Positions 1,833-60,571 of a stretch of 64,000 bases of DNA are shown piece by piece. Below the pieces are notes generated by a model. That model had not been told where the DNA came from. It saw only the letters and a program-made list of their open reading frames with translations, and did not search any database. The position numbers and the translations under genes are program-made. The stretch's first letter is position 1. Every line of letters begins with the position of its first letter. The DNA is taken from the NCBI RefSeq assembly GCF_003865345.1, contig NZ_RMVE01000001.1, positions 248,001 through 312,000 of the forward strand. The letters are read 5' to 3'. The stretch is from Nonlabens xiamenensis. Its GTDB lineage: Bacteria > Bacteroidota > Bacteroidia > Flavobacteriales > Flavobacteriaceae.

Positions 1833-1848
1833 CGCTTTCGCGAAAGCG
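1833..1848. repeat. 16-bp palindrome CGCTTTCGCGAAAGCG, copy 1
   Basis: Perfect 16-bp inverted repeat in the 240-bp gap between atpD and the hypothetical gene at 1891-2289 (42 bp beyond that gene's stop codon). It is the first of 11 copies in the window. No T-tract follows on either strand, so it does not look like a terminator. Confidence 0.95.
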
Positions 1849-1890
1849 GACACCCCCTGCAGCTGGTCTTAAGAAAATGAAAATTTACAG

Positions 1891-2289
1891 CTAATCAATC
1901 AGCACACCTTCCTGCTCCATGACGGGTAGCGTGGTGGTCTTGTTCTCGGAAATAGAGTAAGCGCTGGCTATATAAACTTTATCAAATAGCTGTTGCCCCA
2001 CAAAATAGGTGAGTATGAATTCGTTTTCAAAGGCAAAGACTTCTTCCATGATCAATTCGACTTTGATGGCCGATTTTGCCGCTACTACCTTAAACGCATG
2101 TCTGAAGGTGGATGTTTTACGTCCATCTTTATGTTTGCCCCTACTCATGATCATGACTGATTCCAACGGCTCAGTGGTATTATTGATTAAATATACCACC
2201 CAATCGTGCGAGCTAAAATCATCGTTCCATTCCCTGACCACAGCGATATGGACATTTTTTACCTCTGGAATGTGAATATCCTTTTTCAT
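1891..2289 (-). CDS. Conserved hypothetical protein, 132 aa
   Basis: I do not recognise a named domain. The protein is soluble by inspection, with no signal peptide or membrane segment, and has alternating hydrophobic strands (VHIAVVREW, WVVYLINNTT, IKVELIMEEV, EFILTYFVGQQ) that suggest a beta-sandwich. It sits 69 bp downstream of pheS on the same strand and may be cotranscribed with it. Similar small proteins beside pheS in flavobacteria are, as far as I recall, sometimes labelled pheS-related through naming carry-over; nothing in this sequence resembles a synthetase. The ATG at 2287-2289 is the only good start. Confidence 0.8.
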   Translation of the reverse strand: MKKDIHIPEVKNVHIAVVREWNDDFSSHDWVVYLINNTTEPLESVMIMSRGKHKDGRKTSTFRHAFKVVAAKSAIKVELIMEEVFAFENEFILTYFVGQQLFDKVYIASAYSISENKTTTLPVMEQEGVLID

Positions 2290-2358
2290 GAATTTAATTA
2301 CACAGCAATTTGTATTAACACAATACAGCCAATCATTTAAAGCTACTGGAAAGCCCTG

Positions 2359-3378
2359 TTAAATGGCACTAGAGAACTGTTTGAGGAATCGAACGTCATT
2401 CTCAAAGAACATGCGTATATCTCCGATTTGATACAGCAACATAGCAATGCGTTCCACTCCCATTCCAAAGGCAAATCCACTATACTCTTCTGGGTCAATT
2501 CCACAATTGGTAAGAACAGCCGGATCTACCATACCACAACCTCCAATTTCTAACCATCCGGTACCTTTGGTGATGCGATAATCGGTTTCAGTTTCCAGAC
2601 CCCAAAAGATATCAATTTCGGCACTGGGCTCGGTAAATGGAAAATACGAAGGCCTTAACCTGATCTTTGACTTTCCAAACATTTCTTGGGTAAAGTAAAG
2701 TAAGGTTTGTTTCATATCAGCAAAACTAACTTCCTTGTCAATATAAAGTCCTTCTACCTGATGGAAGATACAATGCGCTCTGGCACTGATCGCTTCGTTC
2801 CTGAAAACTCTACCTGGTGAAATGGTCCTGATGGGAGGTTGGTGATCTTCCATATACCTTACCTGTACACTAGAAGTGTGGGTGCGCAACAAAACGTCAG
2901 GGTTGGTTTGGATAAAAAAAGTATCCTGCATATCTCTAGCCGGATGGTGTTCAGGAAGATTGAGCGCGGTAAAATTGTGCCAGTCGTCCTCGATTTCTGG
3001 ACCCTCGCTTACATTAAAACCTATTCTTGAAAATACATCAATGATCTGGTTTTTTACAACCGATATAGGGTGCCTGCCTCCGATATTCATTGGTGTACCT
3101 GTACGGGTAAGATCACCGTGGATACCTGCCTCTTCTTGTTGAGACTCTAATCGGGACTTAAGATCTTCAACCTTTTCGGTGGCTTTTTGTTTGAGTTCAT
3201 TGATCGCCTGACCAAACGCCTTCTTCTGGTCATTGGGCACTTCCTTAAATTGAGCAAAGAGTTGTTTAAGCAATCCCTTACTCCCTAAATATTCAATTCT
3301 GAAAGCCTCTATTTGTTCCTGTGAGTCTGCCTGAAAAGCAACCACCTTATCAATATGTTCTTTAACCTTATCCAGCAT
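2359..3378 (-). CDS. pheS: Phenylalanyl-tRNA synthetase alpha subunit
   Basis: The 339-residue protein is the catalytic alpha chain of the alpha2-beta2 enzyme that charges tRNA-Phe. Residues 1-85 form the charged N-terminal coiled coil that grips the tRNA. The class II core follows, with motif 2 (GRVFRNE at 189-195, then F-H-Q-V-E-G at 205-210), and motif 3 (GFAFGMGVERIAML, 301-314) near the C-terminus, which binds ATP. Length and motif order are typical. The beta-subunit gene pheT is not adjacent, which is usual in this phylum. A TAAATTTG box lies 20-27 bp upstream of the ATG. Confidence 0.97.
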   Translation of the reverse strand: MLDKVKEHIDKVVAFQADSQEQIEAFRIEYLGSKGLLKQLFAQFKEVPNDQKKAFGQAINELKQKATEKVEDLKSRLESQQEEAGIHGDLTRTGTPMNIGGRHPISVVKNQIIDVFSRIGFNVSEGPEIEDDWHNFTALNLPEHHPARDMQDTFFIQTNPDVLLRTHTSSVQVRYMEDHQPPIRTISPGRVFRNEAISARAHCIFHQVEGLYIDKEVSFADMKQTLLYFTQEMFGKSKIRLRPSYFPFTEPSAEIDIFWGLETETDYRITKGTGWLEIGGCGMVDPAVLTNCGIDPEEYSGFAFGMGVERIAMLLYQIGDIRMFFENDVRFLKQFSSAI

Positions 3379-3397
3379 GATCCTGATTCTAAGTCGG

Positions 3398-3405
3398 CAA
3401 ATTTA
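3398..3405 (-). promoter_or_regulatory. -7 promoter box for pheS
   Basis: The minus strand reads TAAATTTG (TAnnTTTG consensus), 19 bp before the pheS ATG. The intergenic gap to the upstream same-strand gene is 50 bp, so pheS may also receive read-through. No -33 TTG at standard spacing is seen. Confidence 0.5.
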
Positions 3406-3428
3406 GTCAATTCCACCTGCTTTTGCAG

Positions 3429-4112
3429 TTAAAGGGCTTTCTTCTTTTCAATATCCAAATAGATGTATTGCATAAGAAAAAATACAGCCACCGCACCGAA
3501 GCAATGCCACAACCAATGGGTTCCCATATTTAGGAATGCCAGGTCGTACTTTTTATCCAGGGTCCTAAAGCCTACCGCCGTAAGGAAAGAAGCCACCGCA
3601 AAAGCAATGAACCGCATATTTTTCCAATTGTTTTTATAGGCATAAAATACAATCGGAAAGAGTACAGCTACTGCAGTTCCTATATAGCCAATAGATATGC
3701 GATATCCTTCTGGAAGTGAAACTACCCTCGGGATTACATTGAGGGCAAAGATACTAGCAATCACTAATAACTTACCCCAGAGACTTACAGGTAGCCTTAA
3801 AGCAAAATAAACCGCACAAGCTGCAAGTAAGAGAACAATGGGCACCCAATCTAACAACAGCCAAAACTCATGGCTACGGGTGGCATGATAAACAGTGCCT
3901 CCAATAAATCCGAAAAAGAATATGGGCATACAAGCTCTTAAAAACCAGTGCTTATGATTTGAACGATAAATCAGCCAACTGAAATAAAAGATGCACCCGA
4001 GAAAAACAAAATTGCTGGCTGTATTAAATGGCTCCACCGGAAAACGCCCCATTATCGTTTCCTTATAGATCGGCCCTGAATCACCAACTTCCTGAATGAA
4101 TTTTAACAGCAT
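3429..4112 (-). CDS. CREST-family (alkaline ceramidase-like) membrane hydrolase
   Basis: A 227-residue protein with about seven hydrophobic segments. The metal-site pattern of the CREST superfamily (alkaline ceramidases, PAQR receptors, Per1) can be picked out: the EPFNTASN motif near residue 27, H76 in the T-V-Y-H-A-T-R-S loop, D88 in L-L-D-W-V-P, and H199 and H203 in G-T-H-W-L-W-H in the last helix. These three histidines and the aspartate would bind zinc in the membrane. The serine found three residues before the first histidine in eukaryotic ceramidases is G72 here. Substrate is unknown; Bacteroidota do make sphingolipids, so amide hydrolysis of such lipids is a reasonable but unproven idea. 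Confidence 0.7.
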   Translation of the reverse strand: MLLKFIQEVGDSGPIYKETIMGRFPVEPFNTASNFVFLGCIFYFSWLIYRSNHKHWFLRACMPIFFFGFIGGTVYHATRSHEFWLLLDWVPIVLLLAACAVYFALRLPVSLWGKLLVIASIFALNVIPRVVSLPEGYRISIGYIGTAVAVLFPIVFYAYKNNWKNMRFIAFAVASFLTAVGFRTLDKKYDLAFLNMGTHWLWHCFGAVAVFFLMQYIYLDIEKKKAL

Positions 4113-4276
4113 TACTGCGTAGGATTAATCTGCTAAAATAAAGAATGCCTCACACATCAACCTACGAATCTTTAAAACAGTATTTTTTTTAACCAAAGGC
4201 ATTCATTTACAGTTATTGAAATTCAGGCCCTTGGGCTTCCAGATTCATTTTCTTAATAACTACTTATAGGAAGGAC

Positions 4277-4306
4277 TTGATCGTTTTGAATAAATTTATA
4301 TGTTTG
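4277..4306 (+). promoter_or_regulatory. Promoter (TTG-N19-TATGTTTG) for the SPOR-protein gene
   Basis: TTG at 4277-4279 is separated by 19 bp from TATGTTTG at 4299-4306, matching the flavobacterial -33/-7 pattern. The -7 box overlaps an in-frame ATG at 4300. The start site should therefore fall near 4311-4314, right at the second ATG (4312), which implies a leaderless mRNA and decides the start codon. Confidence 0.6.
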
Positions 4307-4311
4307 TCATC

Positions 4312-5283
4312 ATGCAAGTTGGATCCTACATCTCCGAACTTTTATACCGACACGAATGTGTGGTTATTCCTGGTTATGGTGCGCTATTGTCCCGCAGGGT
4401 TCCTGCCCAGCATTTTGCCAGTAGCCATACCATTTACCCCCCAAAAAAAGGTTTAGGTTTTAACGCACAAATTACCCAAAACGATGGACTATTGGCCAAT
4501 CATATAGCCTCCGTTAAGAATATTGGGTTTGATCAAGCGGTACAAGAGATTCGAGATTACGTAAGATTTTTGGATCAGGAAATTGAAGAGCATGGTTCAG
4601 TCACTATTCACAAAGTGGGTCGCTTCACGCGAAATAATGAGCAGGCACTTCAATTTACACCCATGTATCTGGTCAACTATCTTCCTGAAGCCTTTGGACT
4701 AAGCCTTCACGAGACTTATGCTATTGACAGATTGCCTTCCTCCCAAACACAAACTGCAACAGCCATAGAAAATGACGTCCTTGAGCAGCAAGCGGACAGC
4801 CCGGTAGTTACGTTAGAAACTCCTGCCACCCGATCTTCCGCCTGGATTAGAGTAGCCGCTGTTGGTGCTGTATTATTAGGAATAGGTTATTTAGGCGTGA
4901 ACAGCTATCAAAAACAGCAACTAGACCAACAAGTTGCCGTAGAAAAAATGGCCCAAGAGCAATTACAATCAAGGATTCAAGAGTCGAGTTTCTTGATCAA
5001 TACACCTCTCCCCAGTGTTGAAATTGAGGTATCACCATTGATTAAAAATTACCACATTGTGGCTGGTGCTTTCCGTGATCCCGCCAATGCTGATAAAAGG
5101 GTTCGTCAATTGCAGCGACAAGGCTATGACGCCAGGCGTATAGGTGTGAACCGATACGGATTGCACAACGTTGCTTTTTCTAGTTTTGTAGAACGCCATG
5201 ATGCCATCAACGAATTGAATAAACTGCGCCAGCTTGGTTTTTCCCAGGCATGGTTGTTTACCGGTCAATTACCGCAAAAATAG
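4312..5283 (+). CDS. HU-CCDC81 and SPOR domain envelope protein
   Basis: The 323-residue protein has an N-terminal HU-fold region (about residues 1-130, two HU-CCDC81-type domains, beginning Q-V-G-S-Y-I-S-E-L-L-Y) that is cytoplasmic, a single membrane helix near residues 178-196 (VAAVGAVLLGIGYLGV), a short coiled segment, and a C-terminal SPOR domain (about 245-320, starting N-Y-H-I-V-A-G-A-F) that binds denuded peptidoglycan. This links a DNA-binding-like cytoplasmic domain to the septal cell wall, so a role at division sites is inferred. I place the start at 4312, not 4300, because the upstream ATG lies inside the -7 box. The GNAT gene follows 10 bp later. Confidence 0.85.
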   Translation: MQVGSYISELLYRHECVVIPGYGALLSRRVPAQHFASSHTIYPPKKGLGFNAQITQNDGLLANHIASVKNIGFDQAVQEIRDYVRFLDQEIEEHGSVTIHKVGRFTRNNEQALQFTPMYLVNYLPEAFGLSLHETYAIDRLPSSQTQTATAIENDVLEQQADSPVVTLETPATRSSAWIRVAAVGAVLLGIGYLGVNSYQKQQLDQQVAVEKMAQEQLQSRIQESSFLINTPLPSVEIEVSPLIKNYHIVAGAFRDPANADKRVRQLQRQGYDARRIGVNRYGLHNVAFSSFVERHDAINELNKLRQLGFSQAWLFTGQLPQK

Positions 5284-5293
5284 ATCCCATTCG

Positions 5294-5875: not shown

Positions 5876-5944
5876 GGTCTTAGGACCAAATTAATAACAA
5901 CAGCTACAGAATTGCCTATTTTTACAATTCAAAATCAATCTATC

Positions 5945-7024: not shown

Positions 7025-7029
7025 TCAAC

Positions 7030-10635: not shown

Positions 10636-11559
10636 TTATAACCCGTATTCCCTGGCGACCCGAAAAGTATTGGCATGTGCTTCAATGATGGTTTTGATTT
10701 CTGGGGAGTAACCACCTCCCATACTGCATTGAACGGGAACCTTTTGCTGGTTTTTGGAGGTCGCTTTCGCGAAAGCGGAAAAAGCTAACTCATCCCTTTT
10801 TTTACAACCCTCCACACTCAATTCCAGCCGGCCGAGTTTGTCTGAAGCTAAAACATCAACACCACAGAGATAAAAAATAAAATCAGGCTGAACTTGGGCG
10901 ATCAGGTCAGGTAAAGTGTGGCGCAGCTCTTTGAGGTAATATTCATCTCCAGAACCATCTGGAACAGCGATATCTAAATCTGAATTTTCTTTTTTAAAAG
11001 GGTAATTGCCTGCTCCGTGCATAGAAAAGGTGTACACGCTATCATCACCCTGAAAAATCTCTGCCGTGCCGTTGCCTTGATGGACATCCAGATCGACAAT
11101 AAGAACTTGACTGACGTCGTGTTGGTGCTGCAACCAACGTGCCGCGATAGCTTGGTCATTCAGCAGACAAAATGCCTCACCGTGATCAGTATAAGCATGG
11201 TGGGTACCTCCTGCAATATTCATCGCCACGGAATGTATGAATGCCAACTCACAAGCCTCGATCGTTCCTTGGGCAATTAACAACTCCCGCTCTACCAATT
11301 CGGAGGTAAGTGGAAAACCCAATTTCCTGGCAGCACGACGATCCAAGGATAGATTTTTTAAATCGGCCAAATAACCAGGTTCATGAACCCTTAGGACATC
11401 CACCTCGGCACAGGGACGGCTGGGCTCAAAAAAATCTGCAGATTGTGCCGTGCCTTCATGTAACAATTGCTGGGGCAACAATTCATATTTGATCATGGGG
11501 AAACGATGGCCTTCTGGTAAAGGATGTTTGTAAATTGGATGATAGGCAATAGGAAACAA
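10636..11559 (-). CDS. Histone deacetylase-family zinc hydrolase (TTG start)
   Basis: The 307-residue protein shows the arginase/deacetylase-fold signature: N-I-A-G-G-T-H-H-A at 114-122 (active-site histidines), D-L-D-V-H-Q-G-N-G-T at 156-165 (zinc ligands D158 and H160) and G-V-D-V-L-A-S-D-K-L-G near 223-233 (third ligand and Y/L loop), then M-G-G-G-Y-S. Bacterial members deacetylate lysine, acetoin-related or polyamine substrates; which applies is unknown. The start is a TTG at 11557-11559: the reading F-P-I-A-Y-H-P-I-Y matches the family N-terminus and no ATG or GTG is available upstream. A loop of about ten residues before the last motif carries palindrome copy 2, read as A-F-A-K-A. Confidence 0.88.
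   Translation of the reverse strand: MFPIAYHPIYKHPLPEGHRFPMIKYELLPQQLLHEGTAQSADFFEPSRPCAEVDVLRVHEPGYLADLKNLSLDRRAARKLGFPLTSELVERELLIAQGTIEACELAFIHSVAMNIAGGTHHAYTDHGEAFCLLNDQAIAARWLQHQHDVSQVLIVDLDVHQGNGTAEIFQGDDSVYTFSMHGAGNYPFKKENSDLDIAVPDGSGDEYYLKELRHTLPDLIAQVQPDFIFYLCGVDVLASDKLGRLELSVEGCKKRDELAFSAFAKATSKNQQKVPVQCSMGGGYSPEIKTIIEAHANTFRVAREYGL
10762..10777. repeat. 16-bp palindrome CGCTTTCGCGAAAGCG, copy 2
   Basis: Perfect copy inside the HDAC-like gene, read on the minus strand as A-F-A-K-A in a loop (K-R-D-E-L-A-F-S-A-F-A-K-A-T-S-K) that looks longer than in relatives. Confidence 0.95.
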
Positions 11560-17005: not shown

Positions 17006-17659
17006 ATGCAGCACAGTTTGTTATCTACCAAACATCTAACAGCTAGTCAGCGGGAACTTGTCCTTAACAGTGGCTTGGGATTGGTAGATTATGACATTCT
17101 GAAAATCCACCAACTGGACAACTACCAGCCACCCTCCCATCAACATTTGATCATTACTAGTTCCAACGCCATCCCTGGTTTAAAGGCGGTATTTGGGATT
17201 CATCATAAGGTTTATTGTGTCGGCCAACAAACGGCATCCAAATTACAAGAGATGGGCGTTGCGCCGGTGTACACTGCCAACAATGCCAAGGACCTGGCTG
17301 AATACCTCATCCACCAACAAAAAGATCAATCTTTTAGTTATTTGTGCAGCCCACAGCGCAGGAAAGAGTTACCTGATTTGTTGCAAGCTGCAGGAATTAC
17401 GTTGGAGGAGCTTTTTGTTTATGAATCTGTTGCCGTCATGAAAAGCTTTGATCGTATTTTTGCAGCGGTTACTTTCTATAGTCCTCGTGGAGTGGACGCT
17501 TTCGCGAAAGCGAACCCCCACGACAGCAAAGCTATCGCCATTTGCATAGGCCATACCACTGCAGCCAAGGCTAGAGAATATTATGATCAAGTCGTGGTCG
17601 CCCGCCTCCAGAGCGTGGAGAACACCTTGGTAACCGCCATAAAAGCATTGCGCACATGA
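17006..17659 (+). CDS. hemD: Uroporphyrinogen-III synthase
   Basis: The 217-residue protein closes and inverts ring D of hydroxymethylbilane to give uroporphyrinogen III. HemD proteins are poorly conserved, but the two-domain layout is visible, with T-S-S-N-A at about 50-54, Y-C-V-G-Q-Q-T-A at 74-81, the [10 protein letters not shown] segment near 155-164 and the C-terminal C-I-G-H-T-T-A motif at about 178-184. Its stop overlaps the hemE start by 4 bp. Palindrome copy 3 sits in the S-P-R-G-V-D loop, read D-A-F-A-K-A-N, close to what relatives have there. hemA and hemC, normally next to it, are absent. Confidence 0.9.
17497..17512. repeat. 16-bp palindrome CGCTTTCGCGAAAGCG, copy 3
   Basis: Perfect copy inside hemD, read on the plus strand as A-F-A-K-A. 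Confidence 0.95.
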
Positions 17660-23387: not shown

Positions 23388-24131
23388 TCAATTCCTACCT
23401 TGTTCACCCGGATATAATTGATGTACCGGGTCGCTCTGCCATATTTCTTTGGTCTGTACACAAAGGGCAGTGAGCGGCCCCTTATACGCAGCTGCGGTGT
23501 CAACATTCCAAACATTGGCTGCCTGAACAGGTTGGTGTGTCCCCAGACGGTTGGTAGGGGTGTGACCAATAAAAATTTCTTTGTACAACTTCAAGCGGTT
23601 GGGAAACCTAACATCTGCTTGTTCCAGTGACGGATCCAGTGCCAACGCCATTTCCCATAGACTTCGGTCCCAATAAGTCATTTTGGGATAATATTCATAA
23701 GCTGGCCCTTTAAGGTTGTGAAAACCAGCATGAAAATAACCATTCCCATCACTTTCGTAATAGTCCAGCAACTCATGGGTAAGGAAATTTAAATGCTCAT
23801 TGACCTGCAATGAACTGCGATTGGTATAACTACGCAAGGTACTTTTCCCTCCGTGATGTAACCACATTGGATTTGGGCTTTTCTTTTGCAAGTTGTCTAC
23901 CATCAGTTCATCGTGGTTCCCTCTTAGAAAAACGGGTGGCTCTTGAGAGTCTTGTTGTCGCTTTCGCGAAAGCGAGATCAAAAAATTAACAGTTTCAAAG
24001 CTTTCTGACCAACCATCTACATAATCTCCCAGAAAAATGAGTTTGTCCGTAGCTTGAAGGCCAATCCTGTCCAGTAATTGCAGCAATGCTTTGTATCCGC
24101 CGTGTATATCTCCAATGACAATAGTTCTCAT
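23388..24131 (-). CDS. Calcineurin-like Ser/Thr-type phosphoesterase
   Basis: The 247-residue protein has the PPP-family metal motifs G-D-I-H-G (7-11), G-D-Y-V-D-G (35-40) and G-N-H-D-E (71-75), plus downstream metal histidine candidates H148-G-F-H and I-G-H-T-P. It belongs with bacterial bis(5'-nucleosyl)-tetraphosphatase/PrpE-like enzymes; substrate (protein phosphate or Ap4A) is undetermined. Residues 53-65 form a longer loop than usual and hold palindrome copy 4, read here in the frame L-S-R-K-R. Its ATG overlaps the AlbA_2 gene stop by 4 bp, so the two are coupled. Confidence 0.88.
   Translation of the reverse strand: MRTIVIGDIHGGYKALLQLLDRIGLQATDKLIFLGDYVDGWSESFETVNFLISLSRKRQQDSQEPPVFLRGNHDELMVDNLQKKSPNPMWLHHGGKSTLRSYTNRSSLQVNEHLNFLTHELLDYYESDGNGYFHAGFHNLKGPAYEYYPKMTYWDRSLWEMALALDPSLEQADVRFPNRLKLYKEIFIGHTPTNRLGTHQPVQAANVWNVDTAAAYKGPLTALCVQTKEIWQSDPVHQLYPGEQGRN
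23959..23974. repeat. 16-bp palindrome CGCTTTCGCGAAAGCG, copy 4
   Basis: Perfect copy inside the phosphoesterase gene, the only coding copy not read as A-F-A-K-A: the frame here gives S-L-S-R-K-R. Confidence 0.95.
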
Positions 24132-27375: not shown

Positions 27376-29079
27376 TTACGAATGAGGAAGGAGGTCCCTT
27401 AACTTCAATTGTAGACTAGTTACTCCCTGCCATTCATTGGTATCAATAGAATAAGCGATGTCAAAAGCTTGTTTGCCTGTAGTCAAATCGCACTTGCCAC
27501 CAAGATTAAACCCGATGGCGTCAAAGGCTATCTTTGAGTTGATCTTACTCGTTACCCTTAATTTGAGATGCGCATCCTGATCTCCCACACAACGGCCACT
27601 CCCAGTATCAACCAAATTTTCAGTCATAAATACCGGAGTCATATTTCCAGGTCCGAATGGGGCCATTTGCTGCAAAATGCGAAAGAATTTCGGGCTGATA
27701 TTTTCCAATGGTAATCGACTGTCAATATTTAGTTCCTGAATGCGGTGACGCTGTTCCATCGTAGCGCAAACCACTTCTTCAAACCTTTGTTTAAAAGCCT
27801 CATAATGTTCAGGCAGCAGCGTGAGTCCAGCTGCATATTTATGCCCGCCAAATTGCTCTATGAATTCGCTACACTGTTCCAAGGCCTGATAAACATCAAA
27901 CCCCTTTACACTCCTGGCGCTAGCCGCCAGATAATCACCACTTTTGGTAAACACCAAGGTAGGCCGGTAATAGGTTTCAATTAGTCTAGAGGCAACAATC
28001 CCAATTACTCCTTTGTGCCAGTCTTTGTGGTAAACAACACTGGTATGCCGTTTTTGCTCCTCATTCTCCTCGATCTGTTGTAGCGCTTGCAGCGTGATGT
28101 TCCGGTCCAGGTCCTTTCTGTCTATATTATAATTTTCAATTTCGGCAGCAAATTTACGGGCAGTTTCCGGGTCATTTTGGGTAAGTAATTCTACCGCATG
28201 AAGCCCGTGTTTCATACGGCCTGCCGCATTTATCCTAGGGGCGATGACAAAAACCACATCAGTAATTGTCAAAGAAGTTTTGTTCAAATTGGAAATCAAT
28301 GCCTCAATTCCCGGTCGCGGGCAGGTATTGATCACATTCAACCCGTGATAGGCTAATATTCTGTTCTCACCGGTAATCGGTACAATATCGGCGGCAATTG
28401 CTGTAGCCACCAGATCCAAATATGGGATAAGCATCTCAAATTCCCAATCGTTGGTCAAGGCAATCGCTTGACAAAGCTTAAAGCCCACGCCACATCCACA
28501 AAGTTCCTTAAACGGATAGGAGCAGTCAGCGCGTTTTGGGTCGAGCACAGCCACTGCTTTGGGTAAAACCTTGCCTGGACGGTGATGATCACAGATGATA
28601 AAATCGATTCCTTTTTCTGCGGCATACGCCACTTTATCCACCGCCTTAATACCACAATCGAGTGCGATAATCAGGCTACATTGGTTATCTGCAGCATAAT
28701 CAATTCCCTGTATACTGACCCCATAACCTTCCGTATACCGATCTGGAATATAGGTGGCTACTCTATCGTAAAAGCTATGTAAAAACGTAGCCATAAGCGC
28801 AACACTGGTAGTGCCGTCTACATCGTAATCACCATAAATCAGAATGTTTTCATTATTGCCGATGGCTTGCTGGACACGTTGAACAGCAGCCTCCATATCT
28901 TGCATTAGAAACGGGTCATGCAATTCATCCAAATTGGGTCTAAAGAAGGATCTCGCTTTCGCGAAAGTGTCAATTCCACGCTGCACGAGCAGACCTGCTA
29001 AAAACCCATCAATCCCTAGCTCTTGGGCCAATTGATCGCGTTGTTGAGAATCTGGTGGTGGTTGTAGGGTCCAGCGCAT
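27376..29079 (-). CDS. recJ: Single-stranded-DNA-specific exonuclease RecJ
   Basis: The 567-residue protein is the 5'-3' exonuclease of RecF-pathway recombination and mismatch repair. DHH-family motifs are G-D-Y-D-V-D-G-T (83-90), A-L-D-C-G-I (139-144), C-D-H-H-R-P (163-168), followed by the DHHA1 region with S-A-R-S-V-K-G-F-D and G-G-H-K-Y-A-A-G (near 395 and 420). Length is typical for the phylum. Palindrome copy 5 codes for F-A-K-A in the R-G-I-D-T-F-A-K-A segment, with one changed base at the edge. It is followed by a gene-poor 337 bp. Confidence 0.96.
   Translation of the reverse strand: MRWTLQPPPDSQQRDQLAQELGIDGFLAGLLVQRGIDTFAKARSFFRPNLDELHDPFLMQDMEAAVQRVQQAIGNNENILIYGDYDVDGTTSVALMATFLHSFYDRVATYIPDRYTEGYGVSIQGIDYAADNQCSLIIALDCGIKAVDKVAYAAEKGIDFIICDHHRPGKVLPKAVAVLDPKRADCSYPFKELCGCGVGFKLCQAIALTNDWEFEMLIPYLDLVATAIAADIVPITGENRILAYHGLNVINTCPRPGIEALISNLNKTSLTITDVVFVIAPRINAAGRMKHGLHAVELLTQNDPETARKFAAEIENYNIDRKDLDRNITLQALQQIEENEEQKRHTSVVYHKDWHKGVIGIVASRLIETYYRPTLVFTKSGDYLAASARSVKGFDVYQALEQCSEFIEQFGGHKYAAGLTLLPEHYEAFKQRFEEVVCATMEQRHRIQELNIDSRLPLENISPKFFRILQQMAPFGPGNMTPVFMTENLVDTGSGRCVGDQDAHLKLRVTSKINSKIAFDAIGFNLGGKCDLTTGKQAFDIAYSIDTNEWQGVTSLQLKLRDLLPHS
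28954..28969. repeat. 16-bp palindrome, copy 5 (one edge mismatch)
   Basis: CGCTTTCGCGAAAGTG: the 12-bp core is intact and one outer base differs. Read on the minus strand within recJ as T-F-A-K-A; the mismatch gives threonine in place of the first alanine. Confidence 0.9.
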
Positions 29080-34181: not shown

Positions 34182-34197
34182 CGCTTTCGCGAAAGCG
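34182..34197. repeat. 16-bp palindrome CGCTTTCGCGAAAGCG, copy 6
   Basis: Perfect copy in the 113-bp gap between the plsC-like gene (downstream end, minus) and the desaturase promoter; it overlaps the expected -33 region of the desaturase promoter. Confidence 0.95.
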
Positions 34198-38746: not shown

Positions 38747-38762
38747 CGCTTTCGCGAAAGCG
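38747..38762. repeat. 16-bp palindrome CGCTTTCGCGAAAGCG, copy 7
   Basis: Perfect copy in the 117-bp gap between the divergent NtrY-like kinase and aldo/keto reductase genes, 26 bp before the reductase ATG. Confidence 0.95.
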
Positions 38763-41507: not shown

Positions 41508-42416
41508 TTAATTACCACCAGAACTACTTCCGTTATTTTGTTCCCGCTCTTCTCGTTTTTTACGAAGTTCTTCTTCTCTTTCTTCTTTGGCAGCTTTTCG
41601 TGCCGCGGCTATACTATCTCTCTTACGTTGACGCTCTGCCATCAATTTTTCTCTTCGTTCTTTGTAGGCAGCAGCCTTGGCAGCTCGAATAGAATCTCTG
41701 ACTCTGATGCGTTCGGCTTTTTCAGCTTCACGCTCGTCAACAATTTCTTGACGTTTTTCCTGACGCTCTTGTAACTCTTCCTCCTTTTCCTCGATCTTTT
41801 CCCGGTCTGCAACAGAAATAAAAGCCCCTTCACGCTCTTTTTCTATTTGCTCCGTCCTGCTCAATTCCTTCTTTTGAGCTTCCTTTTTCTTGCCAGTGCG
41901 ACCTATAGCTTTAAGAATCACATCACTAATGTCGTGTCTGTCTTCACTATATAACATGGCCAGATCTGAGCTATCGACTATGTAGTCATATTTTTTTTGC
42001 TGCCCGATCTTTTGCACTTCATTAAAGACCTGGTCTTGGACCGGTTGAATCAATTGTTGTTTTTGCAACACAAAATCACCTTGTGCTCCAAACCTCTTTT
42101 GCTGATAATCTGCTAATTCCTGTTGCTTGATGGCGATGTCTTCTTCTTTTTCCTCGATCAATTCTTTGGTCAACAACACGCGCTCATTTTTCAAGGCTGT
42201 CTCCATTTGCTCAATCTCGGTATTCATGGCATCTATTTCCTGTTTCCATTTGGACATCTTCTGTTCCAATTGGCGGGATGCCTCTTGATATTCCGGCACG
42301 CTTTCAAGGATATATTCCATGTTCACGTAGCCTATACGCGCTCCTCGTTGTTGCGCTTTCGCGAAAGCGAAACCAAGAAGAACAGTTAGTACGAAAATTG
42401 AAAACCTATTTTTCAT
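41508..42416 (-). CDS. OmpH/Skp-family chaperone with charged C-terminal tail
   Basis: The 302-residue protein has a signal peptide ending A-F-A-K-A with Q as the first mature residue, a Skp-like coiled coil (about 25-165) with the Y-I-V-D-S-S-D motif (about 145), and an extra tail of roughly 120 residues (about 180-302) dominated by E, K, R and A (for example E-E-R-E-E-E-L-R-K-K-R-E-E-R-E-Q). The tail is a long single helix by composition and is absent from the short paralogue. ATG 42416 is chosen; the ORF could extend to 42449 but that start would abut bamA. Palindrome copy 8 encodes the signal peptidase site. Confidence 0.92.
   Translation of the reverse strand: MKNRFSIFVLTVLLGFAFAKAQQRGARIGYVNMEYILESVPEYQEASRQLEQKMSKWKQEIDAMNTEIEQMETALKNERVLLTKELIEEKEEDIAIKQQELADYQQKRFGAQGDFVLQKQQLIQPVQDQVFNEVQKIGQQKKYDYIVDSSDLAMLYSEDRHDISDVILKAIGRTGKKKEAQKKELSRTEQIEKEREGAFISVADREKIEEKEEELQERQEKRQEIVDEREAEKAERIRVRDSIRAAKAAAYKERREKLMAERQRKRDSIAAARKAAKEEREEELRKKREEREQNNGSSSGGN
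42354..42369. repeat. 16-bp palindrome CGCTTTCGCGAAAGCG, copy 8
   Basis: Perfect copy in the signal peptide of the long OmpH protein, read on the minus strand as A-F-A-K-A directly before the predicted cleavage site. Confidence 0.95.
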
Positions 42417-42450
42417 AACCAAAGTGTTTAATTGAAATAACCGTGCCAAA

Positions 42451-45768: not shown

Positions 45769-46455
45769 CTAAAAGTTACAATAGCATGGCTTACGACCAA
45801 AGGTGTAGGTCAAGGTGATCCCTGTGAAGATGTACCAGTCATTGTTGTTGACATTTCCAAACTCCAGGACATCAAAATCCTTGCTCCTTACCGGGTTGCT
45901 ACCATCCAAGTTGTCTGTAAAGGTGTAACGCGCGCCCACCTCTGCTCCGAGGACCCAGTGATCAGCGATATTGGTCTTTACCCCAAATATAATTGGGACC
46001 GCAATATCTATCGTTTCACCATACTCCTCCAACTCATTTGTGTTATTTAATGCAAACAGGCTGTAATGAAAACCTGTGAGACCAGTATACAAATAGGGAG
46101 TGATGTGTTGTTTTCCAGAATATAACTCCCATTCCCAGAAGGTATACTCGATACCTACACTGGCTTCCAGTAAGGAATAGTTGTATTTATAACCCCTTAA
46201 GTCCCTGGAGATATCATCGCTGTCATTATCGTCACCAACCATATTGGCTGCAATAAAAGTTGCCCTAAAACTATGTCGTGGACTGCGGTTCCATTTGAAT
46301 ATTCCTCCAAAAGCGAGATCCTTCAATTGGACATACTGTGTACTCCCCACATCACCCACGACGTTGGAAGTCCCTCCGTAAACTCCTATCTCGTAGGTCT
46401 GTGCTTTCGCGAAAGCGCAAACCAAAAAAATTAGTGCCAATACTCCTAACCGCAT
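45769..46455 (-). CDS. DUF6089-family outer-membrane protein
   Basis: The 228-residue protein begins with a signal peptide whose last residues are C-A-F-A-K-A, with Q-T-Y-E-I as the mature start, then an eight-strand beta-barrel-like pattern (Y-E-I-G-V-Y-G-G-T-S-N, G-I-E-Y-T-F-W, Y-T-F-T-D) ending in G-R-K-P-C-Y-C-N-F. DUF6089 proteins recur before uppS-bamA in Bacteroidota, so it is likely an outer-membrane helper of unknown job. Palindrome copy 9 encodes its signal peptidase site. It has a TATATTTG promoter box and starts the uppS-bamA-ompH-ompH operon. Confidence 0.9.
   Translation of the reverse strand: MRLGVLALIFLVCAFAKAQTYEIGVYGGTSNVVGDVGSTQYVQLKDLAFGGIFKWNRSPRHSFRATFIAANMVGDDNDSDDISRDLRGYKYNYSLLEASVGIEYTFWEWELYSGKQHITPYLYTGLTGFHYSLFALNNTNELEEYGETIDIAVPIIFGVKTNIADHWVLGAEVGARYTFTDNLDGSNPVRSKDFDVLEFGNVNNNDWYIFTGITLTYTFGRKPCYCNF
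46402..46417. repeat. 16-bp palindrome, copy 9 (one edge mismatch)
   Basis: TGCTTTCGCGAAAGCG, with a changed first base. Read on the minus strand as the A-F-A-K-A end of the DUF6089 signal peptide. Confidence 0.93.
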
Positions 46456-48175: not shown

Positions 48176-48889
48176 ATGGCCATACTGAGCGTAAATGTGA
48201 ACAAGATTGCAACCCTGCGCAATTCCAGGGGAGGAAATGTGCCAGATTTGATCAAGACCTCTATGGATATTGAGCGATTTGGTGCTCAGGGGATCACAAT
48301 CCACCCGAGACCTGACGAGCGTCATATCAGGTATCAAGATGCCAGAGACTTGAAAAAAGTGGTTCAAACCGAATTGAATATAGAAGGCAACCCTATTGAG
48401 AGCTTTGTACAACTGGTGGATGAGGTCAAACCCGCGCAAGTTACATTAGTGCCTGATGCACCAGATGCCATTACCTCCAATGCAGGATGGGACACCTTAA
48501 AACATAAAGATCTGCTGAGTGAAATGGTAAAACATTTTAAAAAACAAGGTATACGAACAAGTATTTTTATTGATCCAGTGGTGTCAATGGTAGAAGGTGC
48601 AGCTGCCATTGGTGTAGATCGTATCGAATTATATACGGAGGATTATGCCAAAAATTACCCCAACGACCCACGCAAAGCCATTGCTCCATATATTGAAGCA
48701 GCTACCGCAGCCAGCAAAGTGGGTCTAGGTATTAATGCGGGTCATGATTTATCCTTGGACAATCTTAAATATTTTGCCCAGGAGATTCCAGATTTGCTAG
48801 AAGTATCTATAGGACACGCCTTGATTTCTGAGAGTCTATACTTAGGCCTGGAGAATGTCATCAATATGTATAAAGCCCGTTTAGCCTGA
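48176..48889 (+). CDS. pdxJ: Pyridoxine 5'-phosphate synthase
   Basis: The 237-residue TIM barrel condenses 1-deoxyxylulose 5-phosphate with 3-amino-2-oxopropyl phosphate to make pyridoxine phosphate. Family motifs are [16 protein letters not shown] (5-20), [10 protein letters not shown] near 45-54 and the C-terminal E-V-S-I-G-H-A-L-I (about 205-213). The start is ATG 48176, which gives the classic S-V-N-V-N-K start; the TTG further upstream sits inside the -7 box. The stop overlaps the next start as TGATG. Confidence 0.96.
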
Positions 48890-49650
48890 TGTTACACAGT
48901 ATTATTTTAGGAAAAGGCCAACCGTTTTTAATCCTACACGGATTCCTTGGTATGGCAGACAATTGGAAAACCTTGGGTAGACAATGGAGCGAATCAGGTT
49001 TTCAAGTTCATTTGATCGATCAACGCAATCACGGACGTAGCCCACATAGCTCTGAATTTAGTTATGAAATGATGGCCCAAGATATCAAAGACTATTGTTC
49101 AGCTCACGGACTGGAACAGATTATTCTTTTAGGACACAGCATGGGCGGAAAAGTAGCCATGAAAGCCGTCAGCCTGTTTCCAACACTCATCGATAAATTG
49201 ATTATCGCAGACATCGCGCCAAAGCCTTATCCTCCCCACCACAGCGACATCATCAATGCGTTAAAGTCGGTTGATCTTTCACAGGTCAATAGTCGTCAGG
49301 AGGCTGATGAAGTGCTGGAAGCTAAAATTAAAGACTTTGGCACCAGGCAATTTTTACTCAAAAGTTTATATCGCAAAAAAGAAGGAATCTATAATTGGCG
49401 GTTTAACCTGGATGTTCTGGGAGAGGCACAGGAAAAGGTTGGTGTACATGAGGACATCCATCCAGTCATTGAGGTTGATACGCTTTTTATCAGAGGTGGG
49501 GAATCTGGCTATATTACGGATCAGGACAAGATGTTGATTGATCACGCTTTCGCGAAAGCAGAATTGAAGACAATCAAAGGTGCTGGACACTGGCTTCATG
49601 CGCAGAAACCACAAGAGTTTTTCACATATGTTATGGAATTCCTAAAATAA
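48889..49650 (+). CDS. Alpha/beta-fold hydrolase (YbfF/ABHD11-like)
   Basis: The 253-residue protein has the oxyanion-hole H-G-F-L-G-M-A-D-N-W (17-26), the nucleophile elbow G-H-S-M-G-G at 83-88 (S85 as base serine), the second acid near D-W-R-F-N-L-D and the catalytic histidine in G-A-G-H-W-L-H-A-Q-K-P (about 229-239). Family members are short-chain esterases or thioesterases. It overlaps pdxJ by a TGATG junction, so it is cotranslated. Palindrome copy 10 lies shortly before the catalytic histidine, read H-A-F-A-K-A. Confidence 0.9.
   Translation: MLHSIILGKGQPFLILHGFLGMADNWKTLGRQWSESGFQVHLIDQRNHGRSPHSSEFSYEMMAQDIKDYCSAHGLEQIILLGHSMGGKVAMKAVSLFPTLIDKLIIADIAPKPYPPHHSDIINALKSVDLSQVNSRQEADEVLEAKIKDFGTRQFLLKSLYRKKEGIYNWRFNLDVLGEAQEKVGVHEDIHPVIEVDTLFIRGGESGYITDQDKMLIDHAFAKAELKTIKGAGHWLHAQKPQEFFTYVMEFLK
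49545..49560. repeat. 16-bp palindrome, copy 10 (one edge mismatch)
   Basis: CGCTTTCGCGAAAGCA: the last base is changed. Read on the plus strand as A-F-A-K-A in the hydrolase gene. Confidence 0.93.
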
Positions 49651-54531: not shown

Positions 54532-54553
54532 TCACTTCTTAATTCGTACCTTT

Positions 54554-54593: not shown

Positions 54594-54619
54594 TTCATTA
54601 CACCCTATTATTACATTCT

Positions 54620-56701: not shown

Positions 56702-56819
56702 TCACTACCAATAATAATTACAGTTAAAGTACCTTTTAAATTGAAGTGAATCGCAGGGACTGAATTCTATTTTCCTGATTCTACACAATCCGCTTAACTT
56801 GCCATCGTTTCTAGTACAG

Positions 56820-58421
56820 ATGAAAAAAGCATTGCATTATTTATTATTGATCACGCTTATCGCCGTGGCCTTGGTACAATGTGCCAAAAAAGGAACCCCA
56901 ACCGGCGGACCCATTGATGAAACACCACCAGCCATTGTTCGTGCTTCTCCGCCTAACTTCACCACAAATTTCAGCGGTCAGGAAATTGAGATTCAATTCA
57001 ATGAATATGTCAAACTTAAGGAGCTGCAGAAACAGCTGGTAATTTCCCCACCTCTTAAGACTCGCCCACTGATTACTCCGCAAGGTAGTGCCTCTAAAAA
57101 AATTAATATAACCATCACCGATACGTTGAAGGAGAACACGACTTATGTGTTTGATTTTGGTCAGAGTATTGTAGATAACAATGAAGAGAACCCATATCCT
57201 TTTTTCAAATATGTATTCAGTACTGGACCAGTCATAGATTCTTTGACGCTCAAAGGCGAAATTATCGACGCTATCAAGTTTGAGCCTGAAGAATTTGTCA
57301 ATGTGCTGCTCTATGAGGTCAATGAAAGCTATACCGACAGCATTATTTATAACGGTCAGCCTAATTATGTGCTGAACACCTTGGACAGCCTTACCACCTT
57401 TACCATGGAAAACTTAAAGGAAGGTACCTACAAGATGGTGGCGCTGAAGGAAGACAATCGCAACCTCAGCTTTAATCCAGGTCGGGATAAGATTGGTTTT
57501 GTCTCCGGATTTGTGAAGGTGCCCAGTGATACCGTATATACCATCAAGATGTATGACCAGGAATTGGACTCCTCCATCAAAAAAATCACCCAGGAAGCCC
57601 AATCCAAACTTTTTATTGGGTACACGGGAGACCTAAGCACAGTTGAGATCCAACCCAATCCGGAAAACCTGTTTGAGGCTACAAGACTTACCAGCTTTGA
57701 AGACAAGGATACACTGCAGTACTGGTTCAGACCAGCCTTGGAACAGGATAGCTTGCTATTAAATACCAGAGTTGCCGATTTCGAAAAAGAATTTAAGGTT
57801 CGTATCAAAGAATTGAAGAGAGATAGCTTGAGCCTAAGTAAAAAAGGCGAACTTTCGTTGCGCAATCCAGCGGCCATCAGTGCTACCACACCTATCAACA
57901 CCGTCAATACGGACAAAATCAGTCTAATCGACAAGGATAGTTTGAATATGGAATTCACTGTTGTGCTGGACTCACTCAAAAACCTTGCTACTTTCAAGTT
58001 TCCCAGGGATGAGGATCAACGCTATACCTTACAATTATTACCTGGAGCGATTACAGACTTCTATGGCAGTCAGAATCTCGACACCCTCGCATTAAAATAC
58101 AGCACCAGGAGTGCTTATGACTACGGAAATATCTTTGTGACCCTGGTGGGTTCCTCCACTACCCCACTACTTCTACAAGTAGTTAAAAAAGACCTGAGCC
58201 TGGTAGCTGAACAAAGCGTGACTGAAGCCGATGAGTACGAATTCAATTTTTTGGATCCAGGGGATTATTATCTAAGACTGGTGTACGATCGAAACGATAA
58301 CGGGAGGTACGATGGAGGTAATTTTCTTCAAGACATCCAGCCTGAACGCGTAGTTTACTATCCCGATTTAATCAATTTACTCAAGAATTTTGATCGGTAC
58401 TATACACTTCGTGTAGACTAA
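56820..58421 (+). CDS. Ig-like (Big_5) domain lipoprotein
   Basis: The 533-residue protein has lipobox A-L-V-Q-C at C21, followed by A-K-K-G-T-P-T-G-G-P, then a Big_5 immunoglobulin-like domain (about 35-125, with P-P-A-I-V-R-A-S-P-P-N and I-Q-F-N-E-Y-V) and a long beta-rich remainder. Such lipoproteins are common and uncharacterised in flavobacteria. ATG 56820 is chosen over a TTG at 56799 because it begins the signal peptide. Its last 41 bp overlap the end of the convergent amidase gene. Confidence 0.87.
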   Translation: MKKALHYLLLITLIAVALVQCAKKGTPTGGPIDETPPAIVRASPPNFTTNFSGQEIEIQFNEYVKLKELQKQLVISPPLKTRPLITPQGSASKKINITITDTLKENTTYVFDFGQSIVDNNEENPYPFFKYVFSTGPVIDSLTLKGEIIDAIKFEPEEFVNVLLYEVNESYTDSIIYNGQPNYVLNTLDSLTTFTMENLKEGTYKMVALKEDNRNLSFNPGRDKIGFVSGFVKVPSDTVYTIKMYDQELDSSIKKITQEAQSKLFIGYTGDLSTVEIQPNPENLFEATRLTSFEDKDTLQYWFRPALEQDSLLLNTRVADFEKEFKVRIKELKRDSLSLSKKGELSLRNPAAISATTPINTVNTDKISLIDKDSLNMEFTVVLDSLKNLATFKFPRDEDQRYTLQLLPGAITDFYGSQNLDTLALKYSTRSAYDYGNIFVTLVGSSTTPLLLQVVKKDLSLVAEQSVTEADEYEFNFLDPGDYYLRLVYDRNDNGRYDGGNFLQDIQPERVVYYPDLINLLKNFDRYYTLRVD

Positions 58422-59184
58422 AAGCATCTCTATCTTCCAGGAACCTCAGCTTGCCTCTATAGTTGTTTAATCCCTTTTTGGACAGCTTAACCTCCTGAAT
58501 CCCTGCGGTGATCCACGGATGTTCAAGCATAGCATTGCCTAGCACGTCATACACCTGTGAATGGCCGCTATAATCCATGCCAGTTCCATCCTTGCCGATC
58601 CGGTTCACTCCGACGACATAGCTCATGTTTTCAATCGCTCTGGCCTTTAATAAGGCATCCCAGGCATTTACTCTCGGCACAGGCCAGTTGGCCACATAAA
58701 GTGCTACATCATAGTCCTGGGTATTTCTGGAATAGACTGGAAACCTGAGGTCATAACAGATTTGCAGCAAAAATTTCCAACCTTTATAAGAAGTAGTCAC
58801 AGGTTGTCCCCCTTGATGGTATACTTCATGCTCACCAGCCAGCGTAAAAGTATGTCGCTTATCGTAGAGCTCAAAGGTGGCGTCAGGTCGCATAAAAATC
58901 CCCCTATTCACATAAAACTCTCCAGTATAAAACATCACGCTGCCATAAATGGCGTAATTTCCTCGGGCAGCATGATCTTTTAAATAGTCCAGTATTTCAT
59001 CTCCGCTGGCCAATCCTTGGGGATTCATAGAAAACCCGGTGGTGAACATTTCTGGCAATACGACCAGGTCAGTAGCACCATATAATTTGACCAATTTGGT
59101 AGAAATATCGTTTAAATTGGCTGTTGGATTTTCCCAATGCAGCATATCCTGAATCAGGCTTACCTTTAAGTCATTGCTATCCAT
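58381..59184 (-). CDS. Nitrilase-superfamily omega-amidase (YafV-like)
   Basis: The 267-residue C-N hydrolase has the triad E45 in L-P-E-M-F, K109 in Y-D-K-R-H-T-F and C143 in Q-I-C-Y-D-L-R-F. These match omega-amidase (Nit2/YafV), which cleaves alpha-keto acid monoamides such as alpha-ketoglutaramate. The 3' end overlaps the last 41 bp of the Big_5 lipoprotein gene on the opposite strand, so both C-terminal segments share DNA. ATG 59184 is used rather than TTG 59190. It is 14 bp downstream of the aminopeptidase gene on the same strand. Confidence 0.9.
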   Translation of the reverse strand: MDSNDLKVSLIQDMLHWENPTANLNDISTKLVKLYGATDLVVLPEMFTTGFSMNPQGLASGDEILDYLKDHAARGNYAIYGSVMFYTGEFYVNRGIFMRPDATFELYDKRHTFTLAGEHEVYHQGGQPVTTSYKGWKFLLQICYDLRFPVYSRNTQDYDVALYVANWPVPRVNAWDALLKARAIENMSYVVGVNRIGKDGTGMDYSGHSQVYDVLGNAMLEHPWITAGIQEVKLSKKGLNNYRGKLRFLEDRDAFSLHEVYSTDQNS

Positions 59185-59197
59185 GCCCAACTGTTAG

Positions 59198-60490
59198 TTA
59201 TTGGTTCATCAATTCTTCGATCTCCTCGATTTCGATCGGAATATCACGCATAAGATTAAAGGGCACTCCATTTTCCTGGATCACCACATCATCTTCCAGC
59301 CTGATCCCAAAGCCTTCTTCAGGAATGTATATACCTGGCTCAACCGTAAACACATTATTAGCTTGCATGGGTTCCCATAGAATCCCATAATCATGCGTAT
59401 CCAATCCAATATGGTGGGAGGTCCCGTGCATAAAATATTTTTTATAAGCTGGCCAATCCGGATCTTCATTTTGGACATCGGCTTTATCAAGTAGCCCTAG
59501 TTCCAGCAGTTGGGCTGTCATTAACTTACCTACTTCTACATGGTATTCCTTCCACATCGTCCCTGGAACCAACATTTTAGTAGCTTCATTTTTGACCCTT
59601 AATACCGCATTGTATACTTGTTTTTGGCGGTCAGTGAATCTGCCGTTGACTGGGATGGTACGCGTCATGTCGCTAGCATAATTAGCGTAACTAGCACCTG
59701 CATCAATCAGCATAAGATCACCGTCTTTACATTCTTTATTGTTCTCTATATAGTGTAGAACATTAGCATTGTTACCGCTAGCGATAATAGGTGTGTAGGC
59801 AAATCCGTCACTGCGTTTTCTAATGAATTCGTGTAGAAATTCTGCTTCTACCTCGTATTCCATTTTGCCAGGTTCCAAAAAGCCCAGCACCCTGCGGAAA
59901 CCAGCATTAGTGATATCACAGGCCGTCTGCATGAGATCGATTTCGAGTTGATGCTTGACCGATCTCAGTCGCTGTAAAATGGGGGCACTCTTGGCATAAT
60001 TATGGGCTGGAAATTGCTCCTTGGTTTTTTTGATAAAACGGTCTTCCCTGGTTTCAAGAACCACTGACTGCCTATAGTGCTCGTTGGTATCAAAATAAAT
60101 CGTCTCGGATTGGGTCATCAACTCAAAGAACTTTTTATCAAAATCTTTGAGCCATTGAATTTGCTGTATACCTGTTATTTCCGTGGCTTTTTCTTTGGTA
60201 AATTTAGCACCTTCCCATACGGCGATATGATCGTTAGTTTCAGTAACAAAAAGTATCTCGCGATCTTTCGGATCTGGAGCATCTGGAAAAAGTACCAAAA
60301 TGGTATTTTCTTGGTCGGCGCCACTTAAGTAGAAAATATTTCTGGCTTGGGTAAAGGGCAGCGTACTATCAGCTCCAGTGGTAAAAATATCGTTGGAATT
60401 AAAAACCGCAATACTCTTTGGCTTCATTTGTGCCATAAAGTTTTTACGGTTATGAATAAACAACTTTGGATCAATAGGATCGTATTTCAT
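59198..60490 (-). CDS. Aminopeptidase P (Xaa-Pro aminopeptidase)
   Basis: The 430-residue pita-bread metalloenzyme has an N-terminal AMP_N domain (about 1-170) and the metal site D-A-G-A-S-Y-A-N-Y-A-S-D-M-T-R-T (two aspartates, about 257-272), H in G-T-S-H-H-I-G-L-D-T-H-D near 352-363, E in E-P-G-I-Y near 386 and E in R-L-E-D-D near 402. It removes N-terminal residues from X-Pro peptides. ATG 60490 is chosen over TTG 60499. The amidase gene follows 13 bp later on the same strand, forming an operon. Confidence 0.93.
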   Translation of the reverse strand: MKYDPIDPKLFIHNRKNFMAQMKPKSIAVFNSNDIFTTGADSTLPFTQARNIFYLSGADQENTILVLFPDAPDPKDREILFVTETNDHIAVWEGAKFTKEKATEITGIQQIQWLKDFDKKFFELMTQSETIYFDTNEHYRQSVVLETREDRFIKKTKEQFPAHNYAKSAPILQRLRSVKHQLEIDLMQTACDITNAGFRRVLGFLEPGKMEYEVEAEFLHEFIRKRSDGFAYTPIIASGNNANVLHYIENNKECKDGDLMLIDAGASYANYASDMTRTIPVNGRFTDRQKQVYNAVLRVKNEATKMLVPGTMWKEYHVEVGKLMTAQLLELGLLDKADVQNEDPDWPAYKKYFMHGTSHHIGLDTHDYGILWEPMQANNVFTVEPGIYIPEEGFGIRLEDDVVIQENGVPFNLMRDIPIEIEEIEELMNQ

Positions 60491-60555
60491 AAAAATCAAG
60501 CATTATAAATTCTGGATGACGCCCAGATGATCCCCTACGAGGATTCTTTTGGATT

Positions 60556-60571
60556 CGCTTTCGCGAAAGCG
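60556..60571. repeat. 16-bp palindrome CGCTTTCGCGAAAGCG, copy 11
   Basis: Perfect copy between the start of the aminopeptidase gene and the small membrane-protein gene. A short reading frame crossing it would also read A-F-A-K-A, but I regard it as non-coding. Confidence 0.95.

Follow-up and report, generated by a model that had tools for sequence, protein, structure and literature searches.

The stretch of DNA considered here comprises 64,000 nucleotides of the flavobacterium Nonlabens xiamenensis (contig NZ_RMVE01000001.1, positions 248,001 to 312,000 of the forward strand; "the window" in what follows) and carries eleven copies of a 16-bp palindrome, whose 12-bp core, CTTTCGCGAAAG, was counted along with the longer palindromic 14-mer and 16-mer versions. 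All eleven coordinates given by a first-pass annotation, made from the letters alone, were reproduced exactly, as were the quality of the copies (core intact in 11/11, eight perfect 16-mers, three with one outer mismatch) and their context, with four copies between genes and seven within open reading frames (ORFs) of at least 150 amino acids; genes are simple ORF picks made by script rather than the calls of a trained gene finder. The copies, to which no strand is assigned, are as follows.

1833..1848, no strand: perfect 16-mer palindrome, intergenic
10762..10777, no strand: perfect 16-mer, within ORF 10636-11559 (minus strand)
17497..17512, no strand: perfect 16-mer, within ORF 17006-17659 (plus strand)
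23959..23974, no strand: perfect 16-mer, within ORF 23388-24131 (minus strand)
28954..28969, no strand: core intact, one outer mismatch, in recJ (27376-29079, minus strand)
34182..34197, no strand: perfect 16-mer, intergenic
38747..38762, no strand: perfect 16-mer, intergenic
42354..42369, no strand: perfect 16-mer, within ORF 41508-42449 (minus strand)
46402..46417, no strand: core intact, one outer mismatch, within ORF 45769-46455 (minus strand)
49545..49560, no strand: core intact, one outer mismatch, within ORF 48889-49650 (plus strand)
60556..60571, no strand: perfect 16-mer, intergenic

Not one of 100 dinucleotide shuffles of the window contained a core. Furthermore, the window harbors no single-mismatch core variants, and all 11 occurrences of TTCGCGAA in it fall within a core. 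The copies can be followed into related genomes, for example at 23959..23974, where the exact core was found in six of the eight congener loci that align across it.

Throughout the N. xiamenensis genome (3.68 Mb in 13 contigs), 581 cores, 553 14-mers, and 422 16-mers were counted, as compared to about 0.2 or fewer cores expected from Markov models scaled up from 464 kb of the same genome, in which 81 cores were found versus 0.004-0.03 expected (models of order 1-5). Reversed-pattern controls had no match in this genome, one match in each of four of the 22 congeners, and none in the other congeners. In a first search of 99 genomes, encompassing the genome itself, 22 congeners, 37 genomes of other genera of the family, and 39 others of the order, every congener proved to hold between 297 and 879 cores (a density of roughly one per 4-8 kb); cores were detected in seven of the 37 genomes of other genera, with a maximum of seven, and in two of the 39 further genomes of the order, with one apiece. 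When 397 genomes of the family were searched, 104 had a match, four of these being Nonlabens, and high counts were restricted to Nonlabens and two genomes of other genera, G255 (445 cores) and G271 (917 cores), all others having at most 21. A Dokdonia-labelled metagenome-assembled genome (MAG), G102, contained 634 cores. A search of 395 Bacteroidota genomes for the 14-mer gave matches in 22, and besides the N. xiamenensis genome none exceeded six.

The distribution thus described was set against a phylogeny of RecJ, whose gene carries the copy at 28954..28969 and whose closest named loci are those of N. dokdonensis (77 %), N. ulvanivorans (73 %), and N. antarcticus (70 %). A tree of 111 rows united Nonlabens, G102, G271, and G255 in one clade with an SH-like approximate likelihood ratio (SH-aLRT) support of 91, which is below the strongest support class; the clade also takes in a Dokdonia MAG locus, L051, from outside the genome counts. 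A single origin of the palindrome system in this Nonlabens-Dokdonia clade would be the simplest reading. Another genus with an obvious palindrome of this kind of its own was not apparent among 80 RecJ-centred loci of 3-22 kb each, which makes for a weak test. In open-licence papers, the letters of the core did not occur, and neither the titles nor the abstract openings of the top-ranked ones on Nonlabens or Dokdonia palindromes, competence, or over-representation dealt with such a signal; judging by the titles listed, papers that carry a 10-base piece overlapping the core are likewise on other subjects. The genome-wide palindrome has the appearance of a hitherto undescribed signal read by some part of the cell.

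Outside the core, the outer bases -1 and -2 are conserved at about 98 % and 90 %, respectively, in the genome and its congeners, with base -2 being weaker in G255 (0.58, 13 sites) and G271 (0.76, 17 sites). Moreover, the 5' flank of each strand is T- and G-rich and C-poor from -12 to -4, the frequency of C in the N. xiamenensis genome being 0.07-0.16 per position (mostly 0.07-0.12) as compared to 0.14-0.25 at -40 to -20. Because these C-poor arms are present at the 17 intergenic sites and in each of the three codon frames of the genic sites (33, 20, and 11 sites, encoding AFAKA, RFRES, and LSRK, respectively), they look like a constraint at the DNA level; in the commonest codon frame, the arm is less clean on the 3' side. 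The arms suggest a symmetric footprint of roughly 36-40 bp. The first-pass annotation had stated that the copies share no flanks, which has to be amended by the C-poor arms beyond the 16-mer; otherwise, the sequences do differ outside the core and these weak arms. In 2.04 Mb, 43 single-mismatch variants were counted versus 418 canonical sites, the commonest form being GCTTCCGCGAAAGC (20/43); both of the near neighbours G004 and G008 are included in this count and the cases are hence non-independent.

How sites come and go is best seen in recJ. The core sits at an identical position in 17 of the 19 congener loci fetched, as well as in the window and in four Nonlabens-labelled loci (two of them from genomes among the fetched loci), and is absent from the 76 other RecJ loci compared. 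It arose without insertion or deletion (indel), with a usually acidic codon (F/Y-E/D-x-A) being turned into FAKA, and was lost in one species via two synonymous changes, with FAKA being kept. In recJ, the DNA site overrides the protein sequence. Over all aligned loci, the exact core was retained in 470 of 690 ordered Nonlabens pairs and in 111 of 190 pairs of the islands described below, ordered pairs being non-independent. At 70-75 % flank identity, it was kept in 216 of 343 Nonlabens pairs as compared to 188 of 6821 control 12-mers, the retention of which lies at 3-5 % for flank identities of 70-80 %. An indel in the core was seen in only 10 of the 220 ordered Nonlabens pairs in which it was not conserved. 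Between G004 and G008 (220 kb each, with 61 and 60 sites and 95.8 % flank identity), 55/56 and 55/57 aligned sites were kept, the losses comprising one point loss and two hairpin insertions. In one direction, the cores differed at three of 672 positions, all in one hairpin-split site, whereas the flank rate would predict 26.3 differences. Between two sister species, divergence within 20-500 bp of the sites amounts to 4.2 % as compared to 4.6 % at shifted positions, which is a weak trend (one-sided p 0.06).

According to these comparisons, sites arose mainly by substitution, and the verdict of the first-pass annotation that they are not insertion elements is backed by both the recJ history and the rarity of core indels. 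Its central proposal of an undescribed genome-wide signal likewise holds: copy numbers lie far above expectation in the whole genome and in 22/22 congeners, and the copies, being mainly substitution-born and different outside the core and weak arms, do not belong to any longer mobile repeat.

The arrangement of the sites is equally distinctive. In 464 kb of the N. xiamenensis genome, 64 of 81 sites are genic and 17 intergenic, corresponding to an approximately twofold intergenic enrichment (p 0.002), and among these 17 neither convergent nor divergent gaps are clearly favored. In the pooled sequence of this genome, G004, and G010, eight pairs of sites were less than 1.5 kb apart versus 75.7 expected, and 13 were 1.5-2 kb apart versus 24.7 expected, with the numbers beyond 2 kb being about as expected. 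The sites thus repel one another, each copy being surrounded by a near-exclusion zone that measures about 1.5-2 kb. The coefficient of variation of the gaps is 0.60 in the 464 kb (0.98 for random placement, 0/5000 as low) and 0.48 in G004 and G008. In the one-contig genome G010, 40 even samples of 20 kb contained 143 sites with a variance of 1.28 versus a mean of 3.58 (p 0.0003). A bias between origin and terminus, which the first-pass annotation had proposed to look for, was not found in these samples, with 75 sites in the origin half and 68 in the terminus half as placed by GC skew (p 0.62).

The exclusion zone tends to hold for imperfect sites as well. Of 33 single-mismatch variants with room for it, only five have a canonical site less than 1.5 kb away, as compared to 54 % of random positions, which were the sole control (p 5e-6). 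In addition, eight of ten instances of hairpin-split sites (six distinct places) are more than 1.5 kb from a canonical site, the remaining two, which represent one shared place of the two species, being 1.42 kb away; cases from these sister species are non-independent. Both single-mismatch and hairpin-split sites resemble members of the same lattice that are weak or have decayed. Several sites of G004 and G008 are interrupted after CGCTTTCGC(G), near the dyad, by small CCTGCCTGCCGGCAGGCAGG-type palindromes, several of these insertions being at matching places in the two species, and other hairpins are inserted at the same point in island sites. Hairpins resembling repetitive extragenic palindromic (REP) elements were found near the dyad at the following loci.

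L356, L358, L361, and L362: REP-like hairpins in G004
L365, L366, L367, L371, and L372: REP-like hairpins in G008
L112, L116, and L118: REP-like hairpins in islands

From these insertion points, the palindrome seems to be a preferred entry point of REP-like hairpins, perhaps by being opened or cut near the dyad.

Outside the clade, copies in the genomes looked at are often clustered, for example in G141, where all 19 lie within 78 kb of one contig (approximately one per 4 kb); in G107, they are dispersed over several contigs. Several of the non-clade genomes have in common two copies exactly 933 bp apart, and the island segments fetched contain stretches that are about 67-99 % alike between hosts. 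The loci concerned are listed here.

L109, L110, L112-L117, L119, L120, and L310-L313: related mobile islands with clade-type sites, from several Flavobacteriaceae genera

These clusters look like islands that have moved horizontally, either from the clade or in exchange with it. An initial idea that they are conjugative elements was given up, since a Pfam scan yielded CusA/CusB-type and outer-membrane efflux proteins, multicopper oxidase, P-type ATPase, and permease among nine proteins of two islands, which points to metal resistance of the Cus/Cop type, and some restriction-modification, Fic, and helicase proteins among ten from the G141 island; because transfer genes were not sought systematically, they are named mobile islands only. 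A plasmid search with recJ DNA returned nothing useful. A scan of viral contigs gave at least 120 matching stretches, and 12 contigs were then searched whole: seven, picked because of several hits, carried two to five cores each, i. e., 27 in 188 kb or about one per 7 kb, and five carried one. Among 20 proteins from the seven contigs, PHROG matches included terminases (G461, G462, G466), tape-measure proteins (G460, G466), portal proteins (G461, G463), a tail sheath (G464), and Mu-type transposases (G463, G464), with the phage identity of G465 being indicated by a primase and weak tail matches only. The Nonlabens phage isolates P12024S and P12024L (host Persicivirga sp.), which look closely related by annotation, have no core in 35.7 kb and 35.0 kb, respectively, where about 4 and 9 would be expected in 35.7 kb from the lowest and highest genus densities tried.

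A strict, lineage-conserved signal that is surrounded by a near-exclusion zone and overrides protein sequence must be read by some machinery. The closest likeness is to the DNA uptake sequences (DUS) of Neisseriaceae and the uptake signal sequences (USS) of Pasteurellaceae, which according to two papers (PMC2397512, PMC1939737) similarly combine a strict core with weaker flanks, at least hundreds of genic and intergenic copies, conservation, even spacing, and clade specificity. Since core, arms, genic and intergenic spread, conservation, exclusion, and clade restriction jointly match DUS better than any other known kind of element, we tentatively take the palindrome to be a clade-specific, self-propagating recognition signal that works like a DNA uptake or recombination sequence, an assignment to which we give slightly less than an even chance. 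Among the functions that the first-pass annotation had listed, an uptake target accordingly fits best, whereas a methylation or HIP1-type signal and a Noc-type organiser have lost ground (see below). Over-representation, even spacing, and orthologous conservation are shared with DUS; the asymmetric core of a DUS is not, and as the core is a perfect palindrome, we speak of working like a DUS rather than of membership. The two kinds also differ in that DUS are denser (one site per approximately 1.1-1.5 kb, as compared to one per 4-8 kb in the 22 congeners) and that the palindrome belongs to another phylum and also occurs in selected phage contigs and islands.

While counts, conservation, spacing, and flanks are observed, the reader, uptake, and drive are inferred and would operate as follows. 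A dimeric DNA-binding receptor would recognise the palindrome on free DNA and would probably be connected with the pilus-independent route by which Riemerella is reported to be transformed. Site-bearing fragments would be taken up or recombined preferentially, and alleles with a site would thereby spread through molecular drive together with selection. A further site on such a fragment would add nothing, which would give rise to the exclusion distance. Both the exclusion below about 1.5 kb and the lack of an origin-terminus pattern would be expected if a single site sufficed for each exchanged fragment. In Neisseria, DUS spacing matches the length of conversion fragments, and many recent DUS are too unlike their homologues to have originated by point mutation, as stated in PMC2397512. 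Some lost or gained palindrome sites resemble this pattern in showing several clustered substitutions or small register shifts. Riemerella has been described (PMC8459023) as naturally transformable without detected pilus homologues, with ComEC, DprA, ComF, RecA, and proteins of unknown function being involved, and R. columbina as preferring its own DNA (PMC7965970). All 11 site-clade genomes examined contained ComEC, and so did 17/17 when six genomes from outside the clade are counted. If the palindrome does work in uptake, it would, as far as is known, be the first such sequence in the Bacteroidota and also the first that is palindromic, and the receptor of a pilus-independent transformation system could be sought with a 16-bp bait.

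Several observations weigh against an uptake function. ComEC and NamZ, whose families are both linked to transformation in Riemerella (PMC8459023), are equally present in the six non-clade genomes examined and thus do not explain the clade restriction. No reader or receptor of the palindrome was found, and no clade member was shown to be competent in the literature consulted. Known uptake sequences are non-palindromic, whereas the core is perfectly symmetric. Single-mismatch variants are scarce, with the sites hence being tighter than expected from drive alone. Finally, DUS are absent from recently acquired Neisseria genes, according to PMC2397512, whereas here selected phage contigs and a mobile island carry sites.

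As a side observation on gene order, ComEC and NamZ (DUF1343) lie about 10-11 kb apart in three Nonlabens genomes (G010:C1:424945/435272; G002:C1:2205793/2194846; G005:C1:463910/474408) and 34-38 kb apart in G009, G019, G020, and G022. In N. xiamenensis, they are on different contigs, and in G255 as well as in the six genomes from outside the clade more than 300 kb lie between them.

Alternatively, the palindrome may constitute a new kind of genome-wide system, a protein-read lattice that is required in resident DNA (chromosome, islands, and temperate phages) at least every few kb and marks it as self for maintenance, repair, or defence, with long-resident DNA being converted to carry it. We consider this to be on the unlikely side. 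If the palindrome is a maintenance or repair signal, it would open up a system of chromosome biology with a ready readout. Under either reading, it seems to label DNA of clade origin in other hosts.

An unlikely scenario is an intracellular organiser, i. e., a dimeric clade-specific protein for which the sites would form a regular anchor lattice to fold, condense, or segregate resident DNA including prophages and islands. The palindrome with its symmetric arms indeed suggests a homodimer with a footprint of the above size, the sites are uniform around the G010 chromosome, and selected phage contigs, two of them with a Mu-type transposase, carry sites (the two Nonlabens phage isolates do not). 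Likewise, parS, Noc, SlmA, and matS sites are palindromic or nearly so and are bound by dimeric chromosome-organising proteins; they number about 10-70 per genome and are regionally biased, whereas the palindrome has some 580 nearly invariant, uniformly spread copies, far beyond the tens of the known organisers, and lacks an origin-terminus bias. A clade-specific ParB/Noc paralogue was considered as the binding protein and rejected, as a ParB_N domain was found in 19 of 19 genomes, in one copy in 16 of them, inside and outside the clade alike. Separately, an open frame of 616 aa with a ParB_N match was seen beside the usual ParB of about 300 aa at G019:C1:1269093, G166:C1:2364602, and G280:C1:1204417, and in G166 and G280 this frame is on the same contig as site clusters.

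Rather improbable in our estimation is a Chi-like or strand-repair mark, at which a processive enzyme such as a nuclease, a translocase, or a mismatch-repair complex would respond from either direction, the site being palindromic. Chi is a short oriented sequence that alters RecBCD/AddAB activity, and it is likewise spaced at a few kb along the chromosome. Such a spacing and the redundancy of nearby sites would suit a processive reader; sites are present on the chromosome, on islands, and on some phage contigs; and the hairpin insertions near the dyad hint at cutting or opening. However, no enzyme was identified, and Chi sequences are asymmetric, 5-8 nt in length, and read on a single strand, whereas a long, symmetric, mutually excluding palindrome with C-poor arms looks like dimeric recognition of duplex DNA. 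A model of HIP1 as sites of effective mismatch repair with saturation (PMC4390886) could be invoked in favor of this idea.

A methylation signal of the HIP1 type, made and kept via a DNA methyltransferase, is very improbable. The resemblance lies in a highly iterated, genome-wide palindrome with a GC-rich centre that is found across the clade; the reading is nevertheless disfavored because the inner sequences show no enrichment outside the core (TCGCGA 41 versus 40.1 expected, CGCG 489 versus 645), and because methyltransferases are not known to recognise a unit as long as 12-16 bp plus arms. The cyanobacterial HIP1, by comparison, has 8 bp, occurs about once per kb, and is tied to methyltransferases for its inner sequences, as given in PMC4390886.

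Least credible is a transcription-level element (operator, terminator, or RNA hairpin) or a REP-like mobile hairpin, as suggested by the 6-bp stem into which the palindrome folds (-4.3 kcal/mol) and by the REP-like hairpins in some sites, since this fold is no better than that of shuffles (z -0.94), no T-run follows the palindrome, whose 3' arm is A/C-rich, and most sites are genic, with the intergenic ones being indifferent to gene orientation. The first-pass annotation had rightly set terminators aside on its own grounds, and intrinsic terminators and RNA hairpins were rejected here as well. REP/RAYT elements spread by insertion of a hairpin unit and are mostly extragenic; such a spread was dismissed in view of the genic location, the recJ site without indel, the rare core indels, and the mainly substitutional birth of the sites.

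Ten ORFs from the longest site gaps in the 464 kb, i. e., part of the ORFs therein, gave no clear mobile-element hallmark in Pfam, and an ORF in a site-poor, low-GC gap (L107:3245-4318; C5:435245-436318) had a below-cut-off match to PF07737, metallopeptidase-like and probably not meaningful. Three of the five longest gaps are lower in G+C.

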